Part shown: one piece after another, positions 19,822-37,419 of the stretch
Layout: every line of letters starts with the position of its first letter
Position numbering within the stretch: position 1 is the stretch's first letter
Source: Akkermansiaceae bacterium
GTDB lineage: Bacteria; Verrucomicrobiota; Verrucomicrobiia; Verrucomicrobiales; Akkermansiaceae
Length of the DNA stretch: 64,000 bases
Direction: 5' to 3'
Assembly (NCBI GenBank): GCA_905181965.1
Contig: CAJIZY010000009.1
Location: forward strand, 1 to 64,000
The notes under the pieces: model-generated
Databases searched by the model: none
Told to the model about the DNA's origin: nothing
The model's input: the letters and a program-made list of their open reading frames with translations, nothing else
Translations under genes and position numbers: made by a program

Positions 19822-20946
19822 CTAGTCACGCTCCAACTCGCGCTGAAGATTCTCCATCATTCGACGCATCAACCCTAATTCACGGCGCATCCGATCACGG
19901 CGAATACCTTGCTGGCCCTGTTGATCAAGGAGCATATTATCCTCCTCGCGTGCAAACGGCGCGGGAGGATTCTTGAGAGCATCTATGATATCGTCACCCG
20001 GCAAAATCAGGGTGCTAATACGCCCGGCACGCGCGATCACCATCCCGATAATTCTCCCGTCTAAATCCACGATCGGAAGCCCTGCATCCTCGACCTCAAG
20101 CTCCATATCTGATTGGATCACATTCCCAAACCCACTCCGAACGCGGCTTTGTCCGCCGCTCATCTGATCCATTTTTTCAAGTCGTTGAGAAACGCCTTGA
20201 AGAATTTCACGCCCTTTCAAGGTCGGCCTTACTTGGAGGATTTCTTCATTCCTCAGCAACTCAATCTCAGGCTGTTCTCCATTCTTCAATCGCCTTAGTT
20301 TTGTCGATAATTCATAGAACCCTTTCACCTCCTGCCCCGCAATTTTTACGATGATGTCGCTCTGACGAATTCCTACCTCAGCCGCAGCGGAGCCTTCGAC
20401 CACATTCTTCACCCTTACTCCTTTGCCAGTCTCAAGCGTATCCATTTCAATCCCAAGAAAACCCTGATCAGTCGATTTCAGGCTACGCTCGCGCACACTA
20501 AGAACCCCCATTGCCTGAGCTTCGCCGTCGGGCCGAATGGCTGAAAGAAAAGCACCCTCTGAGAGATCCCCAGCATCCGCCCATTCAACAGTCGGCGCCT
20601 CGAGCCCCGGCACCTCTAGCACGGCAAGATCATGATCAGCATAAACACCCGAGATTCCGGCATTCAAAGCAACCTGCTCACGATTTGCAGTATACAATCC
20701 CCGCTTTTGCCTGAGCTCACTGGCCTTTGTCAGCAATCTCCCCCCTCCTAGTGAAATTCCATATGAGATACGCTTTCCACCTGAATAAATTGGATAGACT
20801 ACATCTTTAGCGCTAGTGCCCGTGGCACGAAGCGCCACAAAAATCTGCCGTGCTTGTGCATCAGTCACTTCTTGAGCATTCGAAAGCCCCAATTGGGCAA
20901 TGAGACTTGAGGTAGTCAGAAAACTTAAAAACCAAAAAAACTTCAT
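19822..20946 (-). CDS. Trypsin-like/PDZ pseudoprotease, partner of upstream protease
   Basis: The 374-residue product has a signal peptide, a degenerate S1C protease domain, and one PDZ domain (about 180-245, GFLGIEMDT to PEIELLR). Where active relatives have TAAH it has TKAS (catalytic His replaced by Ser). Where they have GDSGGP it has EDAGLP (Ser replaced by Ala). The Asp in DLAVL remains. The C terminus is Arg/Glu-rich and probably helical. It starts 6 bp after the active protease gene and so is probably co-expressed with it. A regulatory, scaffold or substrate-binding role is an inference. The same arrangement is repeated at 35.4-37.4 kb. Confidence 0.82.
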   Translation of the reverse strand: MKFFWFLSFLTTSSLIAQLGLSNAQEVTDAQARQIFVALRATGTSAKDVVYPIYSGGKRISYGISLGGGRLLTKASELRQKRGLYTANREQVALNAGISGVYADHDLAVLEVPGLEAPTVEWADAGDLSEGAFLSAIRPDGEAQAMGVLSVRERSLKSTDQGFLGIEMDTLETGKGVRVKNVVEGSAAAEVGIRQSDIIVKIAGQEVKGFYELSTKLRRLKNGEQPEIELLRNEEILQVRPTLKGREILQGVSQRLEKMDQMSGGQSRVRSGFGNVIQSDMELEVEDAGLPIVDLDGRIIGMVIARAGRISTLILPGDDIIDALKNPPAPFAREEDNMLLDQQGQQGIRRDRMRRELGLMRRMMENLQRELERD

Positions 20947-20952
20947 AATCAG

Positions 20953-21987
20953 CTATCGACGTTCGTTGAGGTGGATATCACCGAGACGGGCAAGTTTGAC
21001 CGTTTTCGTGAGTTTGGAGTCTCCCCGACTATAATTCACCTCTACTTCCTCACCAGGAAGGAGATCCACGAAGATCTCTGAGAGTTTTTGAACCTCACTA
21101 GTGGTTTCCCCGTTGATCGAAATCACCAAGTCTCCTGCAAGGAATCCTGCAGAGAATGCTGGACCGCTACGGGGAACCTCATCCACAACGAGCCCCAAAT
21201 CAGTCTTCCGTAAATTGAGTCCGAGCACAGGACGGTTAGGATCCCTTCGATCACCACCAAGGACGCCCCATAACTTTCCGGCGACCATGTTGTCCCATGA
21301 ACGCTTAAAACCCGAAAGACCCGCATGGTTATTTACCCTACGATCCGGGGCAATATGCGAATGAATTCCCACCACACGCCCATTGAGGTCGAAAAGCGGA
21401 CCACCACTATCACCACCGATCAAAGTGCAATCAGTTGTGACAAAGTCTAGGTTGCCCTTTTTCATCACCCTTCCGAATCTAACCGGAGGCCGTCGGGTAG
21501 GGTCATACCCCTTAGGGTGGCCCATCGCGACCACGAAATCGCCGGCTTCAAGTGACTTGGACTCTCCAACCTCAGCGAAAGGCCATGGCCCTGGGCCAAT
21601 CAGCTTGGCCATGGCCGCGTCACGTGTGAAATTAGCTCCTAACACTCTCGCTCTCTCTTGGCGTCCATCAGGAAAAATTACTGTCATTTCTTTGCTACGC
21701 TCGATCACGTGGGCTGCCGTAAGAATCAACCCATCACTAGAAATAATCACCCCGCTTCCCGAAGCTCCAATTGTTGGCGAAACAAGAGAAACCGTCGTTT
21801 CCGTTTTCTCAAGAACGACCCTTTGCACTTGGGCTTGCAGCTTCTTTAGGTCTCCGAGCCCCCCCACTATCGGCGCAGCAGGAAGTATTACCGCTGGCAC
21901 AAGAATTAAAAATGAGACAAAAATTTTCACCATGGTCCTTAAAACTAAATCGACGACGGAGGTTCCTCTTGTTTTGAAAACTTTCAA
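20953..21987 (-). CDS. HtrA-like trypsin-family serine protease with PDZ domain
   Basis: A periplasmic serine endopeptidase of the S1C type. Of 344 listed residues, the likely start is the internal Met at 19 (MVKIFVSFLILVPAV), which gives a clean signal peptide. The catalytic triad is complete: His93 in LILTAAHVIE, Asp123 in FTRDAAMAKL, Ser194 in IGGDSGGPLFD. A PDZ domain follows from about 245 (PVLGLNLRKTDLGLVV to GEEVEVNYSRG). It is followed 6 bp later by a related pseudoprotease gene. Cellular targets are unknown; such proteases usually handle damaged envelope proteins. Confidence 0.9.
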   Translation of the reverse strand: MKVFKTRGTSVVDLVLRTMVKIFVSFLILVPAVILPAAPIVGGLGDLKKLQAQVQRVVLEKTETTVSLVSPTIGASGSGVIISSDGLILTAAHVIERSKEMTVIFPDGRQERARVLGANFTRDAAMAKLIGPGPWPFAEVGESKSLEAGDFVVAMGHPKGYDPTRRPPVRFGRVMKKGNLDFVTTDCTLIGGDSGGPLFDLNGRVVGIHSHIAPDRRVNNHAGLSGFKRSWDNMVAGKLWGVLGGDRRDPNRPVLGLNLRKTDLGLVVDEVPRSGPAFSAGFLAGDLVISINGETTSEVQKLSEIFVDLLPGEEVEVNYSRGDSKLTKTVKLARLGDIHLNERR

Positions 21988-22078
21988 GAAATTGAAGGCC
22001 CTGAATTATTGACGATCATTACGGACAAATGAGATCTTGGCCTTCGCTCACGGGCGCGTAAGGTCTGCCCGTAATAAG

Positions 22079-24229
22079 ATGCCCCCAAGAAAGAAGGCCC
22101 AAAGAAAGGCTGTCCGAAACAAATCAGCTAAGAAAAAGGCTCCAAAGTTTAACTTTAAAGCCCGTGATTTCTTTTTGGCTCCTTTCCGCATCATTCTACA
22201 CCTCACCTCTAGATTTTCTTTTTGGTTAAAGTGGCCATCTCGAATCGGCCTATCATTAGCTTTTATTGGAAGTGTTTTCGGCACCTGTATCTCTCTCGTA
22301 TACTACACAATTGCATCCACCTACGACCTTGAAGACGTGGTTCAAATGCCTGCTCGAACTGAAATCAAAGATCGCGAAGGGCATATTCTTAAAAACTCAG
22401 CAGGACAAGAAATCGGCTTTCTCCACGGCAAAAATCGGAGGATTATTACCTATTCAGACGTTCCCTCTCACTTTGTCGACGCTCTCATTGCGCAAGAGGA
22501 CAAGCGCTTTCGCAGCCATGGTGCGGTTGATTTCCGTTCGATGGCGCGCGTTGCATGGCGCGCCCTAACCCGTGGAAAACTTGAAGGGGGTGGAACACTT
22601 AGCATGCAACTCGCTCGTAATAGCTTTGCCCTAAAAAAACAAAACGAAGGGATTGTAGCGGGAATTCATCGAAAGATTCTCGAGACTTTCATAGCGGTTC
22701 GAATCGAATCCGATTTCGAAAAAAATGAGATCCTTGAACACTATATGAACCGAATTTTTTGGGGTGGGTCGCTCCGAGGGGTTGAAGTAGCCGCTCACAC
22801 TTACTTCAACAAATCAGCCAAGGAACTAACGCTAGAACAATCAGCCCTTTTGGTTGGCATCATCCGCGCCCCCAATAAATTTTCTCCCTTCCGCCATCTT
22901 GAAAAAGCCAAACTTCAACGAGATTGGGTTCTCGAAAAAATGGTTGAGAACGATGCTATTACTGAGGATGAAGCTGATGCCGCTCGCAAACAAGAACTCA
23001 AAGTTTCTTCACCAAACAATCTTCGCGAAGGAAGCTACGCGCTCGATGCAATTCGCCGTGATTTAAAAAGAATCCTCGAGGAAGAGAACATCCTTGATGG
23101 TGGACTAATCATCGAAACTACGATCGATCCAAATATTCAGGAGCTAGCCGAACGCTCGATGGAAAAACGCTTAGCTCAAGTTGAACAAAGACGGGGCTTT
23201 CCCCATCAAAAAAGATCCCAGTGGAATGGCCGGGGCGCCCCGAATTACCTTCAAGGTGCAACCGTGGTTATTGATAACGAAACCGGGGGAGTTCTAGCAA
23301 TCGTGGGCGGGCGAAATGCAAATGAATCGCAGTTCAACCGTGCCCTCCAATCCGAACGGCAGATCGGGTCCGTCTTCAAACCCTTTATGTTCCTCGCGGC
23401 TTTCAACCGAGGTGTAAAACCTTATGACACCATAAGCGATGCACCCATTAGGCCAGGCGAACTTCGGGGCGCCAATCCAAATTGGAACCCCGCAAATTCC
23501 GATGGAAAATATTACTTGGAGATACCCGTCAGAAGATCGCTTGTTGAATCACGTAACACTTCGGCGATTCGAGTGGCTGCAAAAGCCGGGATGGAGAATA
23601 TTATCACGGTGGCTCGATCATCCGGCTTCAACGTAAGCAACATCCCACTGGTCCCCTCTTCTTTTTTGGGATCTTGGGGTGCTTCAGCAGAGGCCGTAGC
23701 GAGCGCATACACCATCTTTCCAAATGGCGGCACCAGATTTCGCCCTTACTATATTCAGACCATCAAAGATCGTTCCGGTGAGATCATTTGGAAAAATGGC
23801 CCCATCGCATATCAAGCTGCTGATGAGAAATCGGCCTGGGAAGTTTCCCGTATTCTTGAGGACGTAAACAAAAACGGAACCGGCAAAGCGATCCGTTCGA
23901 CTTATGGTTTCCGAACTCCATCCGGAGGTAAAACTGGCACAACTAATGGCCCTACTGATGGTTGGTATACAGGCTACACTTCAGCTTTAACCTGCGCTGT
24001 CTGGGTGGGAATGGATGATGGGAAAACAATTCTCAAAGGAAGCTCAGGAGCTAGCCTCGCATTGCCAATTTGGGTCGATATCATGAAAGGATCTGACCGG
24101 CTCCCAAACATCAAGAATGGACCCATTGCCCCAGCACGTGATTTAGTTGTGGAACCAGTCGACGATGAAGTCCCCCGGGCCATCCCAGTCAACGACGACG
24201 AAATCCCCCTCGCCATCCCAGCCCGGTAA
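22079..24229 (+). CDS. Class A penicillin-binding protein (bifunctional transglycosylase/transpeptidase)
   Basis: Polymerises and cross-links peptidoglycan. The ATG at 22079 (MPPRKKAQRK) is preferred to the upstream non-ATG start because it opens the usual Lys/Arg-rich cytoplasmic tail. One membrane segment follows (RIGLSLAFIGSVFGTCISLVY). The GT51 domain has ALIAQEDKRFRSHGAVD and GGGTLSMQLARN. The transpeptidase domain has SxxK in GSVFKPF, SxN in SRNTS and KTG in GGKTGTTN. The product of about 716 residues fits a PBP1a-type enzyme. It ends with a Pro/Asp-rich tail and is divergent from the protease pair. Confidence 0.93.
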   Translation: MPPRKKAQRKAVRNKSAKKKAPKFNFKARDFFLAPFRIILHLTSRFSFWLKWPSRIGLSLAFIGSVFGTCISLVYYTIASTYDLEDVVQMPARTEIKDREGHILKNSAGQEIGFLHGKNRRIITYSDVPSHFVDALIAQEDKRFRSHGAVDFRSMARVAWRALTRGKLEGGGTLSMQLARNSFALKKQNEGIVAGIHRKILETFIAVRIESDFEKNEILEHYMNRIFWGGSLRGVEVAAHTYFNKSAKELTLEQSALLVGIIRAPNKFSPFRHLEKAKLQRDWVLEKMVENDAITEDEADAARKQELKVSSPNNLREGSYALDAIRRDLKRILEEENILDGGLIIETTIDPNIQELAERSMEKRLAQVEQRRGFPHQKRSQWNGRGAPNYLQGATVVIDNETGGVLAIVGGRNANESQFNRALQSERQIGSVFKPFMFLAAFNRGVKPYDTISDAPIRPGELRGANPNWNPANSDGKYYLEIPVRRSLVESRNTSAIRVAAKAGMENIITVARSSGFNVSNIPLVPSSFLGSWGASAEAVASAYTIFPNGGTRFRPYYIQTIKDRSGEIIWKNGPIAYQAADEKSAWEVSRILEDVNKNGTGKAIRSTYGFRTPSGGKTGTTNGPTDGWYTGYTSALTCAVWVGMDDGKTILKGSSGASLALPIWVDIMKGSDRLPNIKNGPIAPARDLVVEPVDDEVPRAIPVNDDEIPLAIPAR

Positions 24230-24230
24230 T

Positions 24231-25340
24231 CTAATTCTCCGGAAAAATCTTACCCATTGCCCCTCCAGCGCCATGTCGAGCTAGAATTGGCCTCAATACA
24301 TCACGATAATCTGTGACTACCGGGACATCTCCAGGGCCGACTAGGATACCAGTTTCGATGACAGGCATTTCTCCAAGAACATTTCCGCGCTCAGTCCCGC
24401 CCATCACCAACATAGATCCACCGCGGCCGTGATCGGTCCCAAAAGAAGAATTCTCAGCGACCCGGCGACCAAACTCTGTCATTACGACTACGGTCACCGC
24501 ATTCATTAGCTTGCCGAGGTCACGATGAAATGCCGCCAGCCCCTCCGACAAACGTGTCATCAAGGGAGAAATCAACGAGCTTTGGGCAAAATGAGAATCC
24601 CATCCATTAAGATCAATCGAAACTGCCTCAAGTCCAACCCGAGCTCTGATCAAACGGGCGGTTTGGCGCAGGCCATTAGCGAATGAATCATCGCGATACT
24701 CCGCCCCATTCTCAGGCGGGAGATCTTCCCGTCGTAATCTCTCAACCCGACCCAAAGCTTCCAAGGTGTCCCGGGCCGCGGTTCCCAAAATATTTTCCTT
24801 AGCGCCATAAAGAGCGCCCAGCTCAGTCTGCAAAGACTCCGTTGGTCCTGATCCACTTCCCAACGAAAAAGTATCAAGTGATTCCATTACAGTTGCTGCC
24901 GGAGCACCACGCAACACCTCGGGCATTGACTTACCAAGCGCTACAGCCGAAAGCGCACTCGGGGGTTTTCCTTCTCGGTATCGTAGAAATCGACCCAACC
25001 ATCCGCCAGCTAATTGACCTCCATGTTCCATGAGATCCTGAGCATAGAAATGGGAGCGAGTCTCATCATTTGATCCCACCCCCGGAGCAACAGTAAGTCC
25101 ACCCTCCCTATAAATATTATAAAGGCCTGAGAAAGCCGGATTTAATCCGCAATTAGCGTCGCCGAGTTTCAAAATATCTTTTTCTGCAACAGCCAACGTC
25201 GGTCTTACCTTGTAATAATCGCTGTTACCAACCGGTGGAACCAAAGTCAAACCGTCAGCACCACCCCGAAGAAAAACGACTACGAGAGTGGATTGTTCGT
25301 CTCCGTTGCCTGAAATAATTCCGCTGCCTTTCATCTCCAC
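24231..25340 (-). CDS. DUF1501 protein, partner of DUF1800 protein
   Basis: The 369-residue protein shows VVVFLRGGADGLTLVPP at the N terminus, HFYAQDLMEHGG, SIDLNGWDSHF and MTEFGRRV followed by GTDHGRGGSM, which are the DUF1501 blocks of the DUF1800-associated subgroup. It overlaps the DUF1800 gene by about 10 bases, so translation is coupled. Unlike most relatives it has no Tat signal with the ATG at 25340. Either the protein rides out with its partner, or the true start is upstream and hidden. Its function is unknown. Confidence 0.87.
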   Translation of the reverse strand: MEMKGSGIISGNGDEQSTLVVVFLRGGADGLTLVPPVGNSDYYKVRPTLAVAEKDILKLGDANCGLNPAFSGLYNIYREGGLTVAPGVGSNDETRSHFYAQDLMEHGGQLAGGWLGRFLRYREGKPPSALSAVALGKSMPEVLRGAPAATVMESLDTFSLGSGSGPTESLQTELGALYGAKENILGTAARDTLEALGRVERLRREDLPPENGAEYRDDSFANGLRQTARLIRARVGLEAVSIDLNGWDSHFAQSSLISPLMTRLSEGLAAFHRDLGKLMNAVTVVVMTEFGRRVAENSSFGTDHGRGGSMLVMGGTERGNVLGEMPVIETGILVGPGDVPVVTDYRDVLRPILARHGAGGAMGKIFPEN

Positions 25341-26812
25341 TGAAATCCAGGTGAGGCCATCAAAAGCTCGGGATCAAAAGGGATCTCGATTGCTGCTTGT
25401 TCTTCAACCGATGGATTCCGACCCAATAACGATGCTGCTAAACCATCTACTCCACCCGCCTTTTCGATCAAAATTTTTTCTTCAACTTTGATATTTTCAC
25501 TTACCTCATTCCGAGCCAAAGCAATCGCAAAGTGCCATCTCCAGAGCAAGGTCCCAGTCCATGGCGAAGCAACATCAGGGTATCCATCTGGTGTGGGGTA
25601 TTGGAATGGAGCATGCCCCATTCGTATCAAATAATCTACCACGTCTATTTCGGACGAAACCCTTGCTCGCACACCCCGCAGAGCCGAAACAATAAACTCG
25701 AAGGGCCGTTTCAGCTTTTGGGTTCGAGGCCCTTGCAAAAACTCTTGAGTCGCGAACACCGCCCGCAGAGTCGCCTTAATATCTCCTTTGCTAGATAAAA
25801 ACGTTCTAGCCACTTCATTGACCGAAGCCTCAGAGGGCTCATCAGCAATAAAGCGAATACAAAGTTTTCTCCCAAGAAATCGAGCGGTTGAGGGATGTCT
25901 ACCAAGAATCTCCAAAATATCATCGAGATCCTTCTTGCCACCCCCCGGAGCAATTTCATTCCCAAGAACTACCTTTACTCCGTCATCATGAGCATCGGCA
26001 TGGAACTCAACCTTCCCTTTAAAAAATCGATCTTTCCCTCTCACAGTCCATCCACTCAAGCATCTTGCGACTTCCATGACATCCTTCTGCGTGTATCCCC
26101 CACCCACGCCCAGCGTGTGAAGCTCCAACAACTCACGCGCATAATTCTCATTTGGCTTCTCACTCTCCCCAGACTTTCGGTTCTCGCGCCCATCAAGATA
26201 CCAAAGCATGGCAGGACTGAGCGCAGAAGCTTTCAGCAGAGCCGAAAAATCGCCCATCGCATGCTTTCGAATCACTTCGCGGTCATCGGCCACTTTTAAC
26301 CAACGACATTCTTTTTTAGAGATATCGATATTAAAATGATCGCTCCAGAAATGCACCATTACTTCGAAAAGCTGACGTTTGCTCCGAGTGGCCCGAATCA
26401 AGGTTGCCCGAGTCAATTGCTCAAGCAGATGAGCTTCCTTGTATTCATATAATTCGCCAAGTGGGGCATGGATAGCCTCTAGCCTTCTTAACGCCCGTTG
26501 AGTTCTTCTGTCTTCAATCTCATTAGGATTCAGTTGCTCCTCAAGAAAAACTCCAACTGAAGATTCATCATCTACACCTAAGCCTTTCACTCTTGCATAC
26601 TCTGAAGGATCCGGCCCAAAAGTTATCCGATTTAAAACGTGGGAGACCAGATCAACCCCTTCACCAGAAGGCGGAACAACTGGACCTTCCTGCGGCCTCA
26701 TTCCTAGAAGGTCTTCAATCTTTTCGCACCCAGAAGTTGCAAAGAGTGAACCCCCCGCAGCTCCTCTCAGAAAAATGCGCCGAGAAAGATCATCTGAAAT
26801 CTTTGACTTCAT
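25331..26812 (-). CDS. DUF1800 Tat-exported protein
   Basis: The 493-residue protein has a twin-arginine signal (LSRRIFLRGAAGGSLFATSGC), where the final Cys could also serve as a lipobox. The DUF1800 body follows: HVLNRITFGPDPSEYARV, VMVHFWSDHFNID, NENYARELLELHTLGV and KLCIRFIADEPS. It overlaps the DUF1501 gene downstream and shares four bases with the membrane-protein gene upstream (26809-26812), suggesting one three-gene operon. These pairs are common in Verrucomicrobiota and other marine bacteria; the biochemical role is unproven. Confidence 0.9.
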   Translation of the reverse strand: MKSKISDDLSRRIFLRGAAGGSLFATSGCEKIEDLLGMRPQEGPVVPPSGEGVDLVSHVLNRITFGPDPSEYARVKGLGVDDESSVGVFLEEQLNPNEIEDRRTQRALRRLEAIHAPLGELYEYKEAHLLEQLTRATLIRATRSKRQLFEVMVHFWSDHFNIDISKKECRWLKVADDREVIRKHAMGDFSALLKASALSPAMLWYLDGRENRKSGESEKPNENYARELLELHTLGVGGGYTQKDVMEVARCLSGWTVRGKDRFFKGKVEFHADAHDDGVKVVLGNEIAPGGGKKDLDDILEILGRHPSTARFLGRKLCIRFIADEPSEASVNEVARTFLSSKGDIKATLRAVFATQEFLQGPRTQKLKRPFEFIVSALRGVRARVSSEIDVVDYLIRMGHAPFQYPTPDGYPDVASPWTGTLLWRWHFAIALARNEVSENIKVEEKILIEKAGGVDGLAASLLGRNPSVEEQAAIEIPFDPELLMASPGFQWR

Positions 26813-27303
26813 TCCTCAGAAACTTTCTTACTATCACGCCAGCCCAAAAAGGCCGCTCCAATCCCAGTGAGGATCGCCACTGGCAAGACAAAGACCCAGC
26901 CAAGGATCGGGAAAATAATCATCAAGCCGAGCACAATTCCGCCACGTTTGACCCGCAGCCAAGGTTGAGCCTCATCCAAAGGATGCACCAAGCCTTTCCC
27001 AATCCTCAAACATAATCCCGCCGACCCACAAAGACCCAACAGAAAGACCAAAAGAACGATTAAAATCCCAAAAATCTTGATGAACGGAGCTCCTCCATTC
27101 GCAATCAATAATCCTATTACTATTAAGGGAACTCCCATTCCGAGGCCGATGAAAAATGACTTCCACGGCGAATTTCCAAACCGCTCACAACTTCTTTCCA
27201 CTAGGCCCGGGGCTAGCCCAACCGCCCCAACCCAGTAAGCGATTAAGATGATATAAAATCCTGAAATCACAAAGGTCCACAAAAGGACGTCAGCCATGAT
27301 CAT
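26809..27303 (-). CDS. Small integral membrane protein, unknown function
   Basis: I prefer the ATG at 27303 (MIMADVLLWTFV) over the longer listed start, because the upstream codons are not hydrophobic and are less protein-like. The product of about 164 residues has four membrane segments (around DVLLWTFVISGFYIILIAYWVG, FFIGLGMGVPLIVIGLLIA, FGILIVLLVFLLGLCG and GLMIIFPILGWVFVLPVAIL). The C terminus is charged and cytoplasmic-like. I recognise no named family. It overlaps the start of the DUF1800 gene by four bases. Confidence 0.7.
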   Translation of the reverse strand: MIMADVLLWTFVISGFYIILIAYWVGAVGLAPGLVERSCERFGNSPWKSFFIGLGMGVPLIVIGLLIANGGAPFIKIFGILIVLLVFLLGLCGSAGLCLRIGKGLVHPLDEAQPWLRVKRGGIVLGLMIIFPILGWVFVLPVAILTGIGAAFLGWRDSKKVSEE

Positions 27304-27437
27304 TTCAAAAAATCCCCTTCCATAGTTTCGATTGCTATAAGATCTACGTATATCAGGAAAAAAAATTAACACTTCATTTTAAAATCCTAGTGTTTTCCTA
27401 CTTCCCGACTGGGATCGCAGCTCATATCTTATCAGGG

Positions 27438-28859: not shown

Positions 28860-28860
28860 A

Positions 28861-29748: not shown

Positions 29749-29759
29749 GCCCTATTCTT

Positions 29760-31289
29760 ATGAAAAAACTGATTCTCTTTCTCGCCACCCTTAACCTAAC
29801 TCAAGGTTCTCCGGTCGACGGATCAAAGCCCAATATTATTTTTATTCTTTCAGATGATATGGGATGGAACGAACCAGCCTTTAATGGAGGCCAAGCCAAT
29901 CTCACACCACATATCACGAAACTTCGATCACAAGGAGTTAGCCTAGACCAATTCTATGTTCATGCTGTTTGCGCCCCTAGCCGCGCAGCCTTCCTGACCG
30001 GACGATACGCTTTTCGAACTTGGAGTGATTGGCGGTCGGAAGATTTTGGAAAACCTAGCTACCTCGCCAAACTCGGGATGAACTTGGTCAAAAATCAGGA
30101 AGGCGACGAAACGCGACGAATCCACGGAGTGGCATCCGAGGAACGCACAATTGCAGAAGCTTTAAAAGAGGTGGGATACTTCACCTCTATCTCCGGTAAA
30201 TGGCACTGCGGAGAATGGCTTCCCGGTCAACTCCCAATGGGTCAGGGTTTCGACCACCAATACGGTCATTACGGATGGGGTATTGACTACAATAATAAAA
30301 CGATTCCCCACAACGCGCCTGCCCGCTTCGCAGTCTACGATTGGCACAGGAACCAGCAACCGGTATTTGAGCCAGGTTACAGCACAGACTTAATCGCTAA
30401 CGAAGCCGTTCGCGTGATCGCAGACCACCGTATGAAGCGGCAAGATCACCCCCTCTTCATGTATGTCGCCTTCAACGCAGTTCATGGCCCTCTTGAAGAA
30501 ATCCCTCGCTACACGGAAAAACACAGCAAACGACAAGCAGCTCTAAAGTGCCTCGATGATGCTGTCGGGCTTATCGTAAACGCTATCGATCTAAGTGGAT
30601 TCCGAGATGATACGCTTATCATCTTTTCGAACGATAACGGCGGCCTCCGAGAAGAAATGAACACGCCCTACCGCGGAACCAAGAATACAAACTACGAAGG
30701 CGGGGTCCGCGTGCCCTGCGTGATGCGCTGGCCTGAAAAAATCAAAGAAAACTCCGAAAATAGCGGACTGATACACATCACCGACCTTTTCAGCACCTTC
30801 GCCACTCTTGCAGGAGCTCCACTCGATCAAGAACGCCCTCTGGATGGAAAAAATATGACCAATCTTCTTTTTTCGGGATCACCGAGCCCCCGCGATGAGA
30901 TCATTTTTGAAGTTTCTGGCAGTGTTCGATTCCCTGCGATTCGCAAAGGAAAATATAAATTGATCGGGAAGGAACTTTATGATCTTAAAAATGATCCTTC
31001 CGAAAAAAAAGACATCGCGGCCAAATACCCGAAAATCGTAAAACAACTCAATGATCGGGTGACTGCAATTGGAAAAGAGCGCCCTGCTTTAAAAGGAACA
31101 AATCGTCTCATGACGCCTGCCCTCCCTTGGGTCTACGGACAAAAGGAAAACGCAACTGTTGCAGATTGGGTAAAACAAGAAGTTCAAAAAATCCGGAAGA
31201 ACCAGCCGCAGCAATGGCCACGGGGTAAAACTCCATGGCCTCAGGCACCGAAAGACGGCAAAATCATCTATACCGGAGACGGACGCTGA
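29760..31289 (+). CDS. Arylsulfatase-type sulfatase
   Basis: The 509-residue protein has an N-terminal signal (MKKLILFLATLNLTQGSP), NIIFILSDDMGWNEPAF, and the standard formylglycine motif CAPSRAAFLTGRYAF. KWHCGEW, FSNDNGG and YEGGVRVPCVMRWP complete the sulfatase core. The C-terminal subdomain ends with a Trp/Pro/Lys-rich tail. Unlike the first sulfatase in this set, its active-site motif is canonical. No formylglycine-generating enzyme gene lies in the window. Confidence 0.93.
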   Translation: MKKLILFLATLNLTQGSPVDGSKPNIIFILSDDMGWNEPAFNGGQANLTPHITKLRSQGVSLDQFYVHAVCAPSRAAFLTGRYAFRTWSDWRSEDFGKPSYLAKLGMNLVKNQEGDETRRIHGVASEERTIAEALKEVGYFTSISGKWHCGEWLPGQLPMGQGFDHQYGHYGWGIDYNNKTIPHNAPARFAVYDWHRNQQPVFEPGYSTDLIANEAVRVIADHRMKRQDHPLFMYVAFNAVHGPLEEIPRYTEKHSKRQAALKCLDDAVGLIVNAIDLSGFRDDTLIIFSNDNGGLREEMNTPYRGTKNTNYEGGVRVPCVMRWPEKIKENSENSGLIHITDLFSTFATLAGAPLDQERPLDGKNMTNLLFSGSPSPRDEIIFEVSGSVRFPAIRKGKYKLIGKELYDLKNDPSEKKDIAAKYPKIVKQLNDRVTAIGKERPALKGTNRLMTPALPWVYGQKENATVADWVKQEVQKIRKNQPQQWPRGKTPWPQAPKDGKIIYTGDGR

Positions 31290-31306
31290 GCAAACGACCC
31301 TCTCGT

Positions 31307-31852
31307 TCAAGTGGGCCTCATCGCAAAGAACGCGACACCGATCGGGAGCAAGAGACTTCCCAGTTCAAAATAGATTCCGGGACGGTAAACGATCCTTATT
31401 TTTTCTAGTGTCAAAAGTTCGCTAGCATCGACTGCTGCAGCTCCACCTTCAATCCCGGTCATTTTATTTAATTTAATGATCTTCTGCTCCATGGGAAATC
31501 CAAGCTTCATTTGCAATCCGATCAAAATGAGAGCCATAGCAGCAAGGGCCGGTAGAGCAGGTGAAGGTGACCCACCCCCTAGCAATCCAATAAATGCGAG
31601 TAGCAGACCAAGGACGATACAACCTAAAGCAACTGCCACATACAACGCGGCATCAAAGCTTTCCCGGCTTTCGTCATCATCTCGATCTCCGAACTTTAAT
31701 TTAACCTCTTCCCCGAGACTCCCACCCCCCGTAACGGTCTGAAATCCAGATTGCGTGATCTTTGATTTATCGGAGCATTGGAAGTCCAACCAAGGCAGGC
31801 AAAAAAAGCCGAGTGCAGCAGCAAAGGAGACAAAATTTACTTTGGCAATCAT
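31307..31852 (-). CDS. Membrane protein of unknown function
   Basis: The 181-residue protein has about four hydrophobic segments: an N-terminal one (VNFVSFAAALGFFCLPWL), a pair in the middle (AALYVAVALGCIVLGLLLAFIGLLG and ALPALAAMALILIGLQM) and one at the C terminus (SLLLPIGVAFFAM). Between the first and second lies a polar loop with an acidic DRDDDESRE stretch. I recognise no named family. It is convergent with the second sulfatase and upstream of the rplQ terminator. Confidence 0.65.
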   Translation of the reverse strand: MIAKVNFVSFAAALGFFCLPWLDFQCSDKSKITQSGFQTVTGGGSLGEEVKLKFGDRDDDESRESFDAALYVAVALGCIVLGLLLAFIGLLGGGSPSPALPALAAMALILIGLQMKLGFPMEQKIIKLNKMTGIEGGAAAVDASELLTLEKIRIVYRPGIYFELGSLLLPIGVAFFAMRPT

Positions 31853-31896
31853 TTCGAACGCAGATTGAAGAAAGGAATAACTCGAGCAACGGAAAA

Positions 31897-31924
31897 CGGC
31901 TAACCTCCTTCAGGAAGTCAGCCG
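31897..31924 (-). terminator. Rho-independent terminator downstream of rplQ
   Basis: On the minus strand, CGGCTGACTTCCT and AGGAGGTTAGCCG form a 13-bp hairpin with two G-U pairs and a two-base loop, followed by TTTTCC. It lies about 26 bp after the rplQ stop. Confidence 0.8.
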
Positions 31925-31950
31925 CTTGGAATTCGATTTAAGAGTTACTT

Positions 31951-32376
31951 TTACTCTTCGTCCGCTTCGGCAACGTCATCGATATCGTCATCGATATCAA
32001 TATCGTCTCCAAGATTTTCCAAATCAACCCACTCGATGACTGCCATCGGAGCGGAATCGCTAGGACGAGGCCCGAGCTTGGTAATCCGGCAAAAGCCGCC
32101 CGGACGATCACCGACGGCAGGAGCCACGATGTCAAAAAGACGCTTCACGCTATCCTTCTGGCGAAGGAACCGAAACGCCATCCGGCGAGCATGAACGCCA
32201 TCTTCCTTCTTTGTCAGGGTGACAAGCTTTTCAGCGATGGGCCGAAGCGCCTTAGCCTTAGCAAGGGTAGTGCGAATACGACCATGCTCGATGAGAGCGC
32301 AGGCTTGGTTGGCAAGCAGAGAACGACGATGACCGTCTTTGCGCTGGAGTCTTACTGTTTTACGACGATGTCTCAT
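31951..32376 (-). CDS. rplQ: 50S ribosomal protein L17 (bL17) with acidic C-terminal tail
   Basis: The first 110 residues are typical bL17 (MRHRRKTVRLQRKDGHRRSL, LANQACALIEHGRIRTTLAKAK, LFDIVAPAVGDRPGGFCRI). After the normal end (AVIEWVDL) the protein adds a strongly acidic tail of about 25 residues rich in Asp (DDIDIDDDIDD). It follows rpoA by about 40 bp, the usual rpoA-rplQ order, and is followed by a terminator. Confidence 0.95.
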   Translation of the reverse strand: MRHRRKTVRLQRKDGHRRSLLANQACALIEHGRIRTTLAKAKALRPIAEKLVTLTKKEDGVHARRMAFRFLRQKDSVKRLFDIVAPAVGDRPGGFCRITKLGPRPSDSAPMAVIEWVDLENLGDDIDIDDDIDDVAEADEE

Positions 32377-32415
32377 CAGTTTGTTTATTTCTAAATTTCA
32401 ATATTGAAGCGACCT

Positions 32416-33530
32416 TTACTGGTCGAGGTTTTGAGCGATGAGGTCTGCAAGTCCAACCGGAGCCTCTTCCTCCACACCAAGGCGGGGAGCAGCCGGAGCA
32501 CCAAGTGCAGGCCCAGTTAAGAGTGAAGGATCGAGATTTAGGCCAAGGCCAAGGCCAAGCTCGCTCGAGCTTGTCTTTGATCTCGTTGAGTGACTTTTTA
32601 CCGAAGTTACGATAAGTTTCGCCCAAGATGCTTAAGGGCAAGCTGCCCAACCGAGGTAATATTTGCATTGTTGAGGCAGTTGGCGGCACGAACGGAAAGT
32701 TCAATCTCGTTTACGCTCATATTAAGAAGCTTCTTGAGGGCAGCGTTCTCTTCGGACTGCTCGGCAGGCGCCTCTTCAAATCCGACGGCATTATCGTCGT
32801 AGTTGACGAACACGTCTAGGTGATGACGCAGAATCGCAGAAGCTTGCAAGAGAGCATCATGAGGCTCGATTCGCCCGTCTGTCCAGATGTCTAAAACCAC
32901 TTTGTCAAAGTCAGTCATTTGACCGAGACGGGTCGCCCCTACTTCATACTTCACGCGTGAAACCGGCGAGAAGATTGAATCAATCGCAATTACTCCGATA
33001 GGAGCGCCATCGCGTTTATTTTCATCGCCAGTCTTGAAACCACGGCCCACTTGAACCTCGATCTCGGCATCGAATTTCACCTTTTTATCGAGGGTGCAAA
33101 TGACTTGATCCTTATTGACAATTTCATAGATATTATCTTCTTGGATGTCGCCGGCGGTAACTACTCCCTCTTTTTCGACCTTGAGGCTGAGGACGCGGGG
33201 CTCTTTCTCATGAGCCTTAAATTTCACCTTCTTCAGGTTTAAAACAATGTCAGTGACATCTTCAATGACTCCAGGAAGAGTCGCAAACTCGTGCTGCACT
33301 CCAGCGATGCGCACGGATGTGATGGCTGCGCCTTCAAGTGAGGAGAGGAGAACGCGACGGAGAGAGTTACCAATGGTATGGCCAAATCCCTGTTCAAATG
33401 GCTCAGCGGTGAACTGGGCGAATGTATCGGTAGCGGTGTCTTCGTTCTTGATAAGACGGCTTGGGAGCTCGAAACGGTTCAGCTTGATTGGATCGGGCTT
33501 CTCTTCAACTTCAGTATTTTCTTCTGACAT
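32416..33530 (-). CDS. rpoA: RNA polymerase alpha subunit, two frameshifts near the 3' end
   Basis: The first frame carries the N-terminal dimerisation domain (TIGNSLRRVLLSSLEGAAITS) and most of the C-terminal domain (LSVRAANCLNNANITSVGQL). At about 32630 an extra G moves the frame to GETYRNFGKKSLNEIKDKL. At about 32563 another extra base moves to ELGLGLGLNLDPSLL and the end LADLIAQNLDQ, with a TAA at 32416. The alpha-CTD helices are all present once repaired. Since rpoA is essential, these are best read as sequence errors. The gene is separated from rpsD by about 31 kb, which is unusual. Confidence 0.92.
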
Positions 33531-33648
33531 TTTTTTTTGGGTTTGTCGGGTTTCCCTTTGAGCGAGCGAATTCCGGAGGGGAATTCCAAAGGACCTACGA
33601 CGATTTGTAAAACTCGCGAGCGCGGAAAAAACCAGCTTAGGAGGCCCT

Positions 33649-34017
33649 ATGCAATCCTTTTTTGCTTCGGTTCATCAAAGAATCGCCTTTTTAGACCCAT
33701 TTTTAGGTGAAATCTCCAAAAACTGGATTAAAGGTCAATCAAAATCAGCCGTTATGTTAAAATCTCAAAAAAATTTGACTCGTTTTACCTACGAAACAAC
33801 TGCCTTCGAGGGCTGGCGCCTCTGTGTAAGTAGGACTGGGACTACTTTCACCAAATATTTTTCTGATAAGGGTTACGGGTGTCCCCGCGATTCTCTCCGT
33901 GCAGCGGAGAAAACTAGGGCTAGATTGCTTAGACTCATTGACAATTCTCGCCGAATCAACGGGAGGCTCAGCAAGGCGACCATCGAAAAAGCTCAGAAAA
34001 TCCTAGAGGCTGCCTGA
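33649..34017 (+). CDS. Small basic protein with AP2-like motif, putative DNA-binding
   Basis: The 122-residue protein has a good ribosome-binding site (GGAGG, 5 bp before the ATG at 33649). Its centre (FEGWRLCVSRTGTTFTKYFSDKGYG) resembles the three-stranded sheet of prokaryotic AP2-type DNA-binding domains, which typically read GW...S..GK...KYFS...YGG. A basic C-terminal helix follows. It is upstream of the photolyase gene with an 8-bp gap. The assignment rests on a short motif; a stand-alone regulator is a guess. Confidence 0.55.
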   Translation: MQSFFASVHQRIAFLDPFLGEISKNWIKGQSKSAVMLKSQKNLTRFTYETTAFEGWRLCVSRTGTTFTKYFSDKGYGCPRDSLRAAEKTRARLLRLIDNSRRINGRLSKATIEKAQKILEAA

Positions 34018-34024
34018 TTTTGCC

Positions 34025-35386
34025 ATGTCCAAAGCCTACCGCCGGGTTATCCATTGGTTTCGCCGCGATCTTCGACTCACCGATAACACCTCGCTCCTTG
34101 CATCCCTTTCATCTTCAAACGAGGTCGTCCCAGTTTACATCCTCAGCAATTGGACGGGGTCAAATCTATGGACTGGCGCAAAGCGCCAAAATTTCCTCTG
34201 CGAGTGCCTAGCGTCGCTTTCCAGTAATTTAGAGCATCTCGGTGGGCAACTCATCATCCGCCAAGGAGACCCTATCTCAGAGATCCTTAAACTTGCTAAA
34301 GATGCAAGGGTTGACGCTATTTTTCTAAACGAGGACGTCGATCCTTTCGGACAGGCAGTGGAGGCCGAACTCAAAAAAAAATCATCCATTCCAGTTCACT
34401 CGTTTCAGGATGCCACCCTTCATGGTCCTACTGAAGTTTTGAAGGGTGATGGAACGCCCTATCGTGTTTACACTCCATTTGCAAAGCGTTGGCTTCCGGT
34501 CGAAAAGCGCAGATCAGGTGGGCGACCTAGCTCTATCAAGACACCGAGTGATCTGGAATCACTCCCCCTCCCCACCCTCTCACATTGGGGGCTTGAGAAG
34601 GAGGACTGGGAACTTCCAAAGGGTGGTGAAAAGGCAGCTAGGCAGCGAATGAGCGAGGCCCTCGGACACCGAATTTCACGCTATGATGATACTCGTGACA
34701 TTCCCTCGCTTCCCGGAACAAGCCGGCTTTCTCAGGATCTGCGTTGGGGGACTCTTTCGATTCGAGAACTTTACCATAAAGCTGTCAAAACAGGATCCGA
34801 ACAGTATCTCAAGGAACTTGGATGGCGCGAATTCTACTTCCAAATTCTCTACCACTTTCCTGAGGTTCTTTCTGATGAGTTCAATCCAGACTGGAGAGGA
34901 CTCCCATGGGAAGAGCCCGGCAAAAAGTTGCGCTGGCAATTAGGCGAAACGGTTCCCGAGCATGATCGCTCGGATGCGCTGAACTTCGCAAGTCAGTCGC
35001 TTCATGCCCAAGCGGGCGCAGGAGATCGAGCATGGTTGTGGCAAGTTGCCACGATGGTCGACCTGCGCGCCCAGCTCTACCGCTCGGAGGAGTCGCTCAA
35101 GCACACGGAGAGCGGCGCCAGCGCCGCGGCGGCGCTGGCAGTGGAGCGCCGGAAGGTCGAACGCCGCCGAGACGTGCTCAGCGCCGGGCGCAACACGGGT
35201 GTGAGCGAGCGCTCTGCCAAGCGTTGGGTCCCTGAACTAAAGACGGTTGACCCGAAAAGATTCCAAGCTCCTCCGGAAGATGGTCAACCGCTTGCCGACC
35301 GATATCCAGCTCCCATTCTCGATCACAGCGCGGAAAGAAAACAGACTCTAGATATTTTCAAAAAGCACCGATTCCAACAAAAGTAG
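34025..35386 (+). CDS. Deoxyribodipyrimidine photolyase, catalytic segment replaced
   Basis: DNA photolyase repairs UV pyrimidine dimers with light and FAD. Residues 1-305 are a normal photolyase: VIHWFRRDLRLTDNTSLL, then RYDDTRDIPSLPGTSRLSQDLRWG and LGWREFYFQILYHFP. The last 50 residues (RWVPELKTVDPKRFQAPPEDG) are also normal. Between about 34940 and 35214 the expected FAD-binding core is missing. First come scrambled photolyase bases (a MVVAS remnant is in another frame), then a very GC-rich stretch. The frame stays open, so a mosaic protein is predicted, but it lacks the residues needed for catalysis. An assembly chimera is likely. Confidence 0.82.
   Translation: MSKAYRRVIHWFRRDLRLTDNTSLLASLSSSNEVVPVYILSNWTGSNLWTGAKRQNFLCECLASLSSNLEHLGGQLIIRQGDPISEILKLAKDARVDAIFLNEDVDPFGQAVEAELKKKSSIPVHSFQDATLHGPTEVLKGDGTPYRVYTPFAKRWLPVEKRRSGGRPSSIKTPSDLESLPLPTLSHWGLEKEDWELPKGGEKAARQRMSEALGHRISRYDDTRDIPSLPGTSRLSQDLRWGTLSIRELYHKAVKTGSEQYLKELGWREFYFQILYHFPEVLSDEFNPDWRGLPWEEPGKKLRWQLGETVPEHDRSDALNFASQSLHAQAGAGDRAWLWQVATMVDLRAQLYRSEESLKHTESGASAAAALAVERRKVERRRDVLSAGRNTGVSERSAKRWVPELKTVDPKRFQAPPEDGQPLADRYPAPILDHSAERKQTLDIFKKHRFQQK
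35046..35214 (+). other. GC-rich foreign-looking patch inside the photolyase gene
   Basis: About 170 bases are far richer in G+C than either flank. Read in the frame of the host gene they give VDLRAQLYRSEESLKH and NTGVSERSAK, an Ala/Arg/Glu-rich helical sequence with no photolyase character. It recalls the N terminus of eukaryotic coiled-coil proteins of the CCDC174 type (VDLKAELF..., N-x-GVS-x-RA-x-K). The upstream junction follows a scrambled photolyase stretch; the downstream one is immediately before RWVPEL. Confidence 0.6.
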
Positions 35387-35410
35387 CAAGGCCTAGCGTA
35401 AATCCGTTTT

Positions 35411-36406
35411 TCAAGGCTCCTTTCGGAGCTCAGCCAAAAGCTCTGATAGCTCCTGGCCTGGAATCGCAAATGCTTCAACTCGGTTCACTGCTGCAATATT
35501 CATTCCCACAAATTGGTTATTCAATGTGAAAACGGGTCCCCCGACCGTGTTACGATTTAGCATTGTCTCGTGCTGTAAAACCATCGGGAAGCCGGTCCTT
35601 CGCGCAGACTGCTGAGCTTCACCACCACTCAACTGATCATTCCGAGTTGCGCCCTTTCCATAGAGCTTATGTCGGGCCATTAACTCGACTTCCAAGTTTA
35701 GCTCTTCGCTTCCACGTGTTAAGACTAACTTAATCTTGTCACCTGGAGATTTCTCTTTGAGGTAGGTGATCAAATCGTCACGATCTCTGATATCTGAGCC
35801 ATCAACTTTTAGGAGCTTATCCCCTTTTTTTAAACCAGCCAGAGCAGCACCCGAATCCTCAGTAACATTATCGATGAAAAGGTCACCGTCCTGTTCTTTG
35901 AGACCCACTCCCAGAACCGCAGGTGAACCACCCGGAATCTCACGCTTGTTGGCACTTATAATACCGGCACGGGGGCGACGAAAACGGCGCTCGGTCGCTC
36001 CATTAGAAACAACCCAGGTGCCGTGGGGCAAATCCTTAGCCTGAGAAAAGTCCACCGGCTTGAGGCCCTGCGCTACGATCTTGATCATCATGACATCCCA
36101 GACGTCATTTCTAGCTACAACGATAGGATCCCGGAACTTCTTGGTACCAACCCGCACGTAGTAGCTTTCCACCTCCTCGATTTCACTGGCCTTGGTCATA
36201 ATCAGTCCATCATCCGAAACCACGGTCCCATAAAGAAATGCCTTGGATGTCTCATTGTTATAAAAGACGGCACTGCTTTCTTGGAGCGATACCTGTACCG
36301 GAGAAAGCGCATCCTGAATCAAGGGACCGTTCTTTCGCTTTTCCGAGGGAAGTGAATTTGCCGCGAGAGGTAGCAAAAACGCGAATATAAAGATAAAAAT
36401 TCTCAT
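35411..36406 (-). CDS. Trypsin-like/PDZ pseudoprotease, second copy of the pair
   Basis: The 331-residue protein has a signal peptide, a degenerate protease domain and a PDZ domain (about 165-245, VLGVGLKEQDGDLFIDNV to LEVELM). The catalytic His is replaced (LIMTKASEIE, where active relatives have LTAAHV). The Ser is replaced (NTVGGPVF instead of GDSGGPLF). Asp is probably kept in WDVMMIK. Its start overlaps the stop of the active protease gene by four bases. The arrangement and the TKASE substitution match the pseudoprotease at 19.8-20.9 kb, which argues for a conserved role and not random decay. Confidence 0.82.
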   Translation of the reverse strand: MRIFIFIFAFLLPLAANSLPSEKRKNGPLIQDALSPVQVSLQESSAVFYNNETSKAFLYGTVVSDDGLIMTKASEIEEVESYYVRVGTKKFRDPIVVARNDVWDVMMIKIVAQGLKPVDFSQAKDLPHGTWVVSNGATERRFRRPRAGIISANKREIPGGSPAVLGVGLKEQDGDLFIDNVTEDSGAALAGLKKGDKLLKVDGSDIRDRDDLITYLKEKSPGDKIKLVLTRGSEELNLEVELMARHKLYGKGATRNDQLSGGEAQQSARRTGFPMVLQHETMLNRNTVGGPVFTLNNQFVGMNIAAVNRVEAFAIPGQELSELLAELRKEP

Positions 36407-37419
36407 GGTCGTTCTCCAAGCTTGATGGTCTCTTTCTTAGACTTTCCCCCGCTAATCCACTTTAGCGTCAATTTATCCCCGGCTCCTAGCTCGGCAAGCG
36501 TAGTTGCCATCAACACCTTGGTGGCCTTCTCACCAGCGATTTCTATAATACGGTCTCCAACCTTTAATCCAACTTTTTCTGCCACTCCATCTTTCCAAAG
36601 TTCGGTGACCTTGAGGCCGCCTTCCTCTGATTCTTCGGTCGCGACACCAAGAAATCCGGTACCAGGTTTACTCTTCTGAGCAAAACCACCGTCTCCAATA
36701 AACTTCCCTGACTTCAACTCATCCCAGTGAGCCTGAAACTCACGAATCGGAACGTGCATACTTTCCTCGCGAGATGCCCCTACCCTACTGTGAATTGCGA
36801 TCAATTCACCCTCCATATTGAAAAGAGGCCCCCCCGAATCACCCCCAATAAGCATACAATCCGACTGAACTGTCGTCTCCGCCTCTCTTACTAATCTACC
36901 CACGCGGACATTCACCCCGCGAGCTTTATCAAACCCACCCGAGTGCCCGAGTGAAAAGACCCAGTCACCGAGCCTTGTAGTGTCTTTTAAATCAACTTCC
37001 ACAAAAGGAAAAGGGCCAGCGCCTTCGATTTGTAGCATTGCCGAATCGGTCTCGGAATTTAGCCCCAGAGAACGACCAGTGAACTCACGGCCGTCTTCCA
37101 TGATCACCTTAATTTCCTCATCAACCTTACTCGTTACATGAGCCGCAGTCAGCACAAGACCCTCTTTGCTAATAATCACCGCGCTTCCTGAACCACCACC
37201 CATTTGTAAACAAACTGTCGCTGAGCGAGTTCGCTCAAGATGAGATTGAAGAGCGTTTTGGATTTCACGGAAATCACCGAGAGTCTGCGGGGCTTCTTTG
37301 TCGTTAAAATCAGGTCGGTCAGCATAAACCAAGCTCCCGAAAACCAGGGGGCATGTCATCAAAATCATTCCGCACTTCATCTTTTGAAGAAGTTTAGTTA
37401 GGGAACGAGTCGGAAGCAA
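36403..37419 (-). CDS. HtrA-like trypsin-family serine protease with PDZ domain, second copy
   Basis: The 338-residue protein has an N-terminal hydrophobic signal (MKCGMILMTCPLVFGSLVYA, so Met14 is a likely start) and a complete triad: His94 in LVLTAAHVTS, Asp125 in SETDSAMLQI, Ser195 in IGGDSGGPLFN. A PDZ domain starts at about 255 (GFLGVATEESEEGGLKV). It is overlapped by its pseudoprotease partner. It is a paralogue of the 20.9-22.0 kb protease, sharing motif order, spacing and even the QSDC/TTDC stretch before GGDSGG. Confidence 0.9.
   Translation of the reverse strand: MLPTRSLTKLLQKMKCGMILMTCPLVFGSLVYADRPDFNDKEAPQTLGDFREIQNALQSHLERTRSATVCLQMGGGSGSAVIISKEGLVLTAAHVTSKVDEEIKVIMEDGREFTGRSLGLNSETDSAMLQIEGAGPFPFVEVDLKDTTRLGDWVFSLGHSGGFDKARGVNVRVGRLVREAETTVQSDCMLIGGDSGGPLFNMEGELIAIHSRVGASREESMHVPIREFQAHWDELKSGKFIGDGGFAQKSKPGTGFLGVATEESEEGGLKVTELWKDGVAEKVGLKVGDRIIEIAGEKATKVLMATTLAELGAGDKLTLKWISGGKSKKETIKLGERP

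Follow-up and report, generated by a model that had tools for sequence, protein, structure and literature searches.

HtrA proteases are classically known as homotrimers, every chain of which combines sensing with cutting. In Arabidopsis, Deg5 assembles with Deg8 into a mixed complex, and yeast Nma111 is grouped with the Deg7-type layout of plants, which is set out below. Here we describe a family of HtrA-like gene pairs, in each of which an active protease is followed by a catalytically dead relative (a pseudoprotease), starting from two loci in a 64,000-nucleotide stretch of an Akkermansiaceae bacterium of the Verrucomicrobiota (contig CAJIZY010000009.1 of assembly GCA_905181965.1, positions 1 to 64,000; hereafter the window). 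The evidence strongly supports an ancestral active/inactive module whose two members were duplicated together, and the dead member is predicted to carry its PDZ domain inside the protease fold.

Among the closest described systems, DegS, DegP, DegQ and HTRA1 share the same folds and an activation route that runs from the PDZ domain or substrate to loop L3 and thence to LD of the adjacent subunit (PMC3575494, PMC11252331). They are assembled from identical, all-active subunits with C-terminal PDZ domains, whereas in the present loci sensor and cutter seem to be split between two products. A nearer likeness is offered by MamE and MamO, an active HtrA protease and a dead relative encoded in one gene cluster; MamO has a degenerate triad and a residue other than Gly at position 193, activates MamE non-catalytically and is required for proteolysis by it, and the pseudoproteases of magnetotactic bacteria had separate origins in three clades (PMC4794232). 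MamO differs in its TauE-type domain and metal-binding His pair, and the part of that paper considered here makes no mention of a nested PDZ (PMC4794232). The window proteins score far below the cut-offs of the NCBIfam MamE and MamO models (the best MamO score, 46.8 bits against 800, belongs to an active gene, and the dead protein P0003 reaches 15.9), and no TauE domain appears in a Pfam scan of them.

In plant Deg7 an active HtrA protease domain and a degenerate one belong to the same polypeptide, and the degenerate domain is involved in trimerisation (PMC3473262). That protein is eukaryotic and linear in order (protease-PDZ-PDZ-dead protease-PDZ-PDZ); here, in contrast, the dead fold encloses the PDZ and the partners are mostly separate genes. 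The Deg7-type layout is seen neither in the window pairs, which are separate genes, nor in the fused relatives L062 and L061, where the second PDZ is nested. Arabidopsis Deg5 is, like some of the active partners considered below, an HtrA protein without any PDZ, with the difference that both Deg5 and Deg8 have catalytic triads; a nested PDZ is not mentioned in the passages considered here (PMC3640471). Among the titles and abstract openings of the open-access matches listed, there was no active/inactive pair of this kind and no PDZ nested in a trypsin fold, and the words "inserted", "nested" and "inactive" are absent from the main text of a survey of microbial PDZ proteins (PMC6411480). The present family differs from MamE/MamO and Deg7 in its nested PDZ, its near-strict pairing across genera and its active partners that lack a PDZ.

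The two loci and the loss of catalytic residues

The two window pairs are spaced about 13-16 kb apart and comprise the following features, the types T1 and T2 being paralogue clades of the trees described below:

20953..21987, minus strand: P0002, active S1C/HtrA-like protease, type T2, with one C-terminal PDZ (Pfam Trypsin_2 7.6e-29, PDZ_2 1.1e-13; TAAHV/D/GDSGGP triad)
19822..20946, minus strand: P0001, pseudoprotease, type T2, with a nested PDZ, 6 bp 3' of P0002
20716..20730, minus strand: TKASE, residues 73-77 of P0001, at the former catalytic His site (alignment)
20230..20463, minus strand: nested PDZ, residues 162-239 of P0001 (Pfam PDZ_2; trypsin segments flank it on both sides)
20074..20091, minus strand: EDAGLP, residues 286-291 of P0001, at the former GDSGGP nucleophile/oxyanion site (alignment)
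36403..37419, minus strand: P0004, active S1C/HtrA-like protease, type T1, with one C-terminal PDZ (Pfam Trypsin_2 4.6e-23; triad intact)
35411..36406, minus strand: P0003, pseudoprotease, type T1, with a nested PDZ and a 4-bp ATGA overlap with P0004
36182..36196, minus strand: TKASE, residues 71-75 of P0003, at the former catalytic His site (alignment)
35681..35917, minus strand: nested PDZ, residues 164-242 of P0003, in the place of HtrA loop L3 (Pfam; insertion point against DegQ)
35534..35551, minus strand: NTVGGP, residues 286-291 of P0003, at the former GDSGGP site (alignment)

The four open reading frames of the preliminary description, with its 6 bp gap and 4-bp overlap, were all located on the minus strand, and its reading of the catalytic motifs holds for both dead proteins: TAAH has become TKAS followed by E, the Asp is retained, and DAGLP or TVGGP replaces the nucleophile Ser. 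Two of its points need correction. It had the dead protein shorter than its partner, and the opposite is true of the first locus (374 residues in P0001 against 344 in P0002); it also had a protease domain followed by a PDZ, which instead sits within the protease fold. Both window actives possess the H, D, S triad and the GxSGG motif. The start listed for P0002 is a TTG; an internal ATG at residue 19 precedes a hydrophobic, signal-like segment seen by eye and is the likelier start. Signal-like N-termini were noticed by eye, and both partners are predicted to be exported, probably to the periplasm. In a related genome (G003, contig C109, 5493-23710) T1 and T2 pairs stand in the same order as in the window at a spacing of ~15-16 kb, and the T1/T2 neighbourhood may be conserved within the genus.

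To follow the catalytic sites across relatives, we pooled 182 distinct dead domains from 173 loci, with identical domains removed and 181 scored per site; chymotrypsin numbers were assigned by alignment, in which a few odd rows (e.g., L266) are possibly misaligned. Position 57, the catalytic His, is Ser in 175 domains, Ala in 4, and Glu, Thr and a gap in one each, with His in 0/181, while the oxyanion Gly at 193 is likewise found in 0/181. The nucleophile position 195 is occupied by Val (62), Met (39), Cys (38), Thr (13), Ala (12), Ile (9), others (5) and, in just two of the 181, Ser. At the same time Lys holds position 55 in 178/181, Glu or Asp position 58 in 171/181, and Asp102 is retained in 179/181. 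Three separate catalytic features are thus gone and a new motif, K-x-S-[E/D], is retained; on a structural reading, Ser57 and Lys55 would bind Asp102 and keep the shape of the turn. The downstream gene has therefore lost its triad in relatives too, as the preliminary description had read it in the window, with the catalytic His in none of the 181. We considered whether the Cys found at the Ser site in 38/181 might mark a cysteine protease, and rejected this given His in 0/181. The active domains from 60 relative regions, the window and two contigs of its own assembly have H, D and S all present in 63/63, and the 72 dead domains of the same set have Ser (67) or Ala (4) at the His site, which is missing in one.

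The nested PDZ domain

In the dead window genes the Pfam Trypsin_2 match ends at profile position 108/144 and the PDZ follows immediately, after which comes the remaining C-terminal trypsin piece (FPxVxQHD...GGPxxDLxGxxxGxNIARxxRxxTxAIP); barrel 1 and the beginning of barrel 2 come first, then the PDZ, and then the remainder of barrel 2. An AlphaFold2 single-chain model of P0003, built on a 70-row alignment, has a predicted local distance difference test score (pLDDT) of 87.9 and a predicted template modelling score (pTM) of 0.83, with blocks 271-330 at 92-96, and it places protease strands both before and after the PDZ (the corresponding model of the active P0004 has pLDDT 85.5 and pTM 0.77). 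Since a trypsin piece lies beyond the PDZ and modelled strands flank it on both sides, the PDZ of the dead protein is, by profile order and predicted structure, nested within the second trypsin barrel.

As to where it enters, the alignment of the dead profile to DegQ (4a8a) breaks off after chain position 164 and resumes at 171, with the PDZ in between; in P0003, 114 residues separate the flanking motifs, and in four other solved HtrA chains the alignment breaks at about the same place. Gly171 of DegQ belongs to loop L3 (PMC3575494), taking the 4a8a chain numbering to be that of the paper, as the alignment position of the mutated catalytic residue indicates. L3 is the sensor loop that takes up the PDZ/substrate signal and, in HTRA1, contacts LD of the adjacent protomer (PMC11252331). 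By these alignments the PDZ occupies the position of the sensor loop L3.

Pairing across Verrucomicrobiota

The survey was confined to Verrucomicrobiota. Regions were picked by their matches to the dead profile, so that the partners were not selected for; scoring in the phylum and class searches extended to the 6 or 8 best candidates of each genome, and absences there are soft. In the first set, an active domain stands beside the dead one in 59/60 relative regions. From a scan of named genomes we kept the best 80 of 162 loci, drawn from records titled Akkermansiaceae, Rubritalea, Roseibacillus, Haloferula or other Verrucomicrobiota; the active gene is directly upstream in 78/80 of these best loci, the other two having just 348 and 524 bp of contig upstream. 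In a third set of 20 regions, of which ten come from families outside the order (f93, f97, f104, f109, f110) and three from family f44 outside the class, the partner is present in 19/20. The pool described above joins these sets to loci from the phylum and class searches. Several loci titled Akkermansia muciniphila (L167, L178, L189 and others, from environmental metagenome-assembled genomes) lie among other Akkermansiaceae matches, and the names look doubtful.

Adjacent protease/pseudoprotease pairs, for which the preliminary description had proposed a search, are thus the rule: of the 182 pooled dead domains 149 adjoin an active gene and 20 share a frame with an active domain, making 169/182 with an intact protease directly upstream or fused. 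The 13 without an upstream partner are made up of nine lying just upstream of a fused active gene, one reverse fusion (L260), two at contig ends and a single loner (genome G055), the only dead gene away from contig ends that is not a neighbour of an active one. The reverse fusion, at L260 2572-4482 in family f44 of another class, has the dead domain first and the active one second; its dead domain has a Ser at the nucleophile site and no His.

A reciprocal test was made in 16 genomes, searching the active and dead profiles separately and dropping rows that matched the PDZ alone (35/112 in the active search) or represented the PDZ of an active gene (8/65 in the dead search). With module-type proteases separated by a gap in scores between 134 and 122 bits, a cut-off set after the list was inspected, 48/48 of them are followed by a dead domain within 2 kb, against 0/29 of the other HtrA-like proteases. 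Conversely, 48/57 dead domains are so paired, the remaining nine being encoded by the upstream genes in fused loci. A further point against chance is that 0/29 of the other HtrA-like proteases lie within 3.5 kb of another match. A search of plasmid sequences with one relative as query gave no match; similar sequences may occur in planctomycetes as well.

Some pairs lack a detectable PDZ on the active side. Our filter finds 15/169 of this kind, with which Pfam agrees for L264 and L265, and the fusion L258, outside these 15, has one PDZ only (Pfam). They include loci of genus g3 (L264, L131, L126 and others), a member of the same family, probably Akkermansia, with small, nearly complete genomes, where a T1-like active gene of ~250 residues has no PDZ and its dead partner has one; in the other pair of such a genome the active side retains a PDZ (L263). 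In ten other g3 genomes, mostly smaller, there was no dead match among the candidates scored. In the pairs without an active-side PDZ, the nested PDZ of the dead partner may be the sole one.

Co-duplication, fusion and selection

Trees of 103 active and 103 dead domains (a set that includes one G141 locus twice, as L138 and L258) recover the same paralogue clades, T1-T4, and the pairs of family f3 split alike in both. The two trees have 59/100 bipartitions in common; they were built by a quick method, the placement of several long branches is uncertain, the T3 actives are marked as potentially joined in error, and the order of the deeper clades differs between them. Across the 60 pairs of 22 genomes with more than one pair, the distances of the partners correlate with a rho of 0.594, whereas swaps of partners within genomes average 0.211 and peak at 0.339 (0/500 swaps reach the observed value). 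Partners show no sign of swapping among paralogues. Active and dead domains share one open frame in 20/182 cases, the fused state changing five times on the dead tree and four on the active one, with two frameshifted rows excluded.

The ratio of nonsynonymous to synonymous substitution rates (dN/dS) is ~0.06-0.19 for the dead genes in 7/9 comparisons, the other two being saturated, and 0.03-0.17 for the active genes in nine; some dS values are large, which makes the lowest ratios rough. The dead gene is under purifying selection. These results, together with the pairing and the reciprocal test, strongly support the earlier proposal of an ancestral active/inactive module duplicated as a unit, and the low dN/dS and the retained K-x-S-[E/D] motif bear out its rejection of independent decay. 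A recent tandem duplication in this genome was also considered and rejected: the two window pairs fall in separate old clades with orthologues elsewhere, and P0001 and P0003 are 24-25% identical. By their sequences, the two window loci are old paralogues.

A proposed heteromeric protease and its alternatives

With moderate confidence, we favor a reading in which each locus encodes a heteromeric HtrA protease whose dead subunit would sense a ligand and gate the active one through L3. The first gene would furnish the catalytic subunit and the second, produced in step with it, a dead paralogue unable to cut; the two would join in a mixed oligomer, where the tail of a substrate, or a stress signal, would be bound by the PDZ of the dead subunit, the rewired L3 of that subunit would move upon this binding, and the moved L3 would set the activation domain of the active neighbor (dead L3 to active LD). 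With one to several pairs per genome, the pairs would presumably be tuned to different substrates. As the PDZ lies in L3, and L3 acts on LD of the next chain in homotrimers, the dead chain could be a pure sensor. The binding of the partners, the mixed trimer, the passage of the signal from PDZ through dead L3 to active LD and the sign of the control are what we infer. More tentatively, and short of an even chance in our estimate, sensing and cutting may be divided between the subunits, as a new regulatory architecture for HtrA proteases, such that the dead one is a dedicated trans-acting allosteric activator within mixed trimers, with its PDZ hard-wired into L3, some active subunits having dropped their PDZ to depend wholly on that of the partner.

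In favor of the heteromeric protease are the pairing, the reciprocal test, the fusions in both orders, the swap test, the insertion at L3, the purifying selection and the precedents of MamO and Deg7. The preliminary description had already raised such a protease as an attractive idea, which now gains indirect support from the two-way fusions and the actives without their own PDZ, the physical complex itself still being a prediction. Several observations weigh against it. Fusion and adjacency would also fit proteins of the same pathway that make no contact, and in the best precedent contact between MamE and MamO was undetected by its authors (PMC4794232). The lone dead gene of G055 (L261, 8886-9944) has no partner within the 17 kb examined. 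T3 loci hold more dead than active domains, which shows that the two are not in a fixed 1:1 ratio at every locus. Taken by itself, the C-terminal trypsin piece gives a weak match to solved HtrAs (e.g., DegQ, E 0.0055), and the insertion point consequently rests on a short alignment. Moreover, the Foldseek template modelling (TM) scores do not separate the nested from the ordinary topology: among the 50 matches listed for each, the dead model reaches TM <=0.44 and the ordinary active model <=0.50 by query length and <=0.58 by target length.

The same data can be read in other ways. The dead protein might be mainly an assembly scaffold that fills trimer positions or builds a cage, its PDZ merely tethering substrates without allostery; the degenerate domain of Deg7 offers a precedent (PMC3473262), and the conserved fold, modeled with high confidence in P0003, and the actives without their own PDZ would suit this role. 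However, a PDZ in the position of the sensor loop and a tightly kept K-x-S-[E/D] motif suggest more than packing, and we consider a mainly scaffolding role unlikely. An inhibitor or brake, which in the manner of a pseudo-subunit zymogen would keep the active partner silent until a stress ligand occupies the PDZ of the dead protein, would draw on the same pairing, co-duplication and fusions, none of which fixes the sign of regulation. Yet MamO, the nearest precedent, is needed for MamE activity rather than opposed to it (PMC4794232), and independent evidence of inhibition is lacking, which leaves a brake quite improbable in our judgment.

A partner that makes no contact at all, being a separate PDZ chaperone or a ligand or metal binder of the same pathway whose adjacency reflects co-expression only, would accord with the metal-binding role of MamO and the undetected MamE-MamO contact (PMC4794232), with the lone dead gene of G055, and with the Cys common at the Ser site (38/181), which could be a binding residue. 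The fusions, in both orders and with four to five changes on the trees, the PDZ-less actives that adjoin dead partners with a PDZ, and the absence of any observed swapping among paralogues speak against such independence, and we regard it as very improbable. Simple decay of the second gene after duplication is hardly credible: the His, Gly193 and nearly always the Ser are indeed lost in the members examined, but the dN/dS of ~0.06-0.19, the upkeep of a novel motif (K 178/181, S 175/181) and the presence of the gene in families outside the order (f93, f97, f104, f109, f110) and the class (f44) all contradict it.

Further pairs in the same genome

The assembly to which the window belongs has 24 contigs and is 61.6% complete. 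Besides the window genes, a profile search of it found four stretches: contig C22 has two of them, C2 has one, and the fourth, a match to the PDZ only, is on C14. Among them are two further pairs, each fused into one gene and the C2 one frameshifted. On C22, P0005 is a single frame of 710 residues that comprises an active protease, a PDZ and a dead nested-PDZ domain. Just upstream lies P0006, another dead nested-PDZ domain, frameshifted here and part of an open frame of ~557 residues in relatives; by eye, the N-terminal part of that gene resembles another dead trypsin half, which Pfam does not recognize. The fused gene on C2 runs to ~800 residues without an internal stop in several relatives. 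The frameshifted members (L007 4328-6654 on C2 and L008 1900-2400 on C22) are open in close relatives, and the frameshifts represent either assembly error or real loss. The whole C22 locus (L008, 1900-5752), like L061, L053, L057, L066, L070, L074 and L076, combines one active domain with several dead ones, in the order of the ~557-residue upstream gene (dead nested PDZ plus dead-looking N-terminal half) and then the active-dead fusion. Elsewhere in the window, positions 44685-46037 hold an open frame of 450 residues with no Pfam match at 1e-5.

Implications

The Pfam and NCBIfam matches of these proteins are all to trypsin-like, PDZ or HtrA models, with no model among them that represents the nested order; automated annotation would therefore probably label the dead proteins as PDZ or trypsin-like proteins. 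In an active/inactive pair, sensor and catalyst would be mutable on separate genes, allowing a direct test of signaling from PDZ to L3 to LD. If the heteromeric reading is true, the family would offer a widely conserved bacterial case, in Verrucomicrobiota of aquatic and, presumably, gut habitats, of a pseudoprotease that serves as an obligate subunit of a protease.

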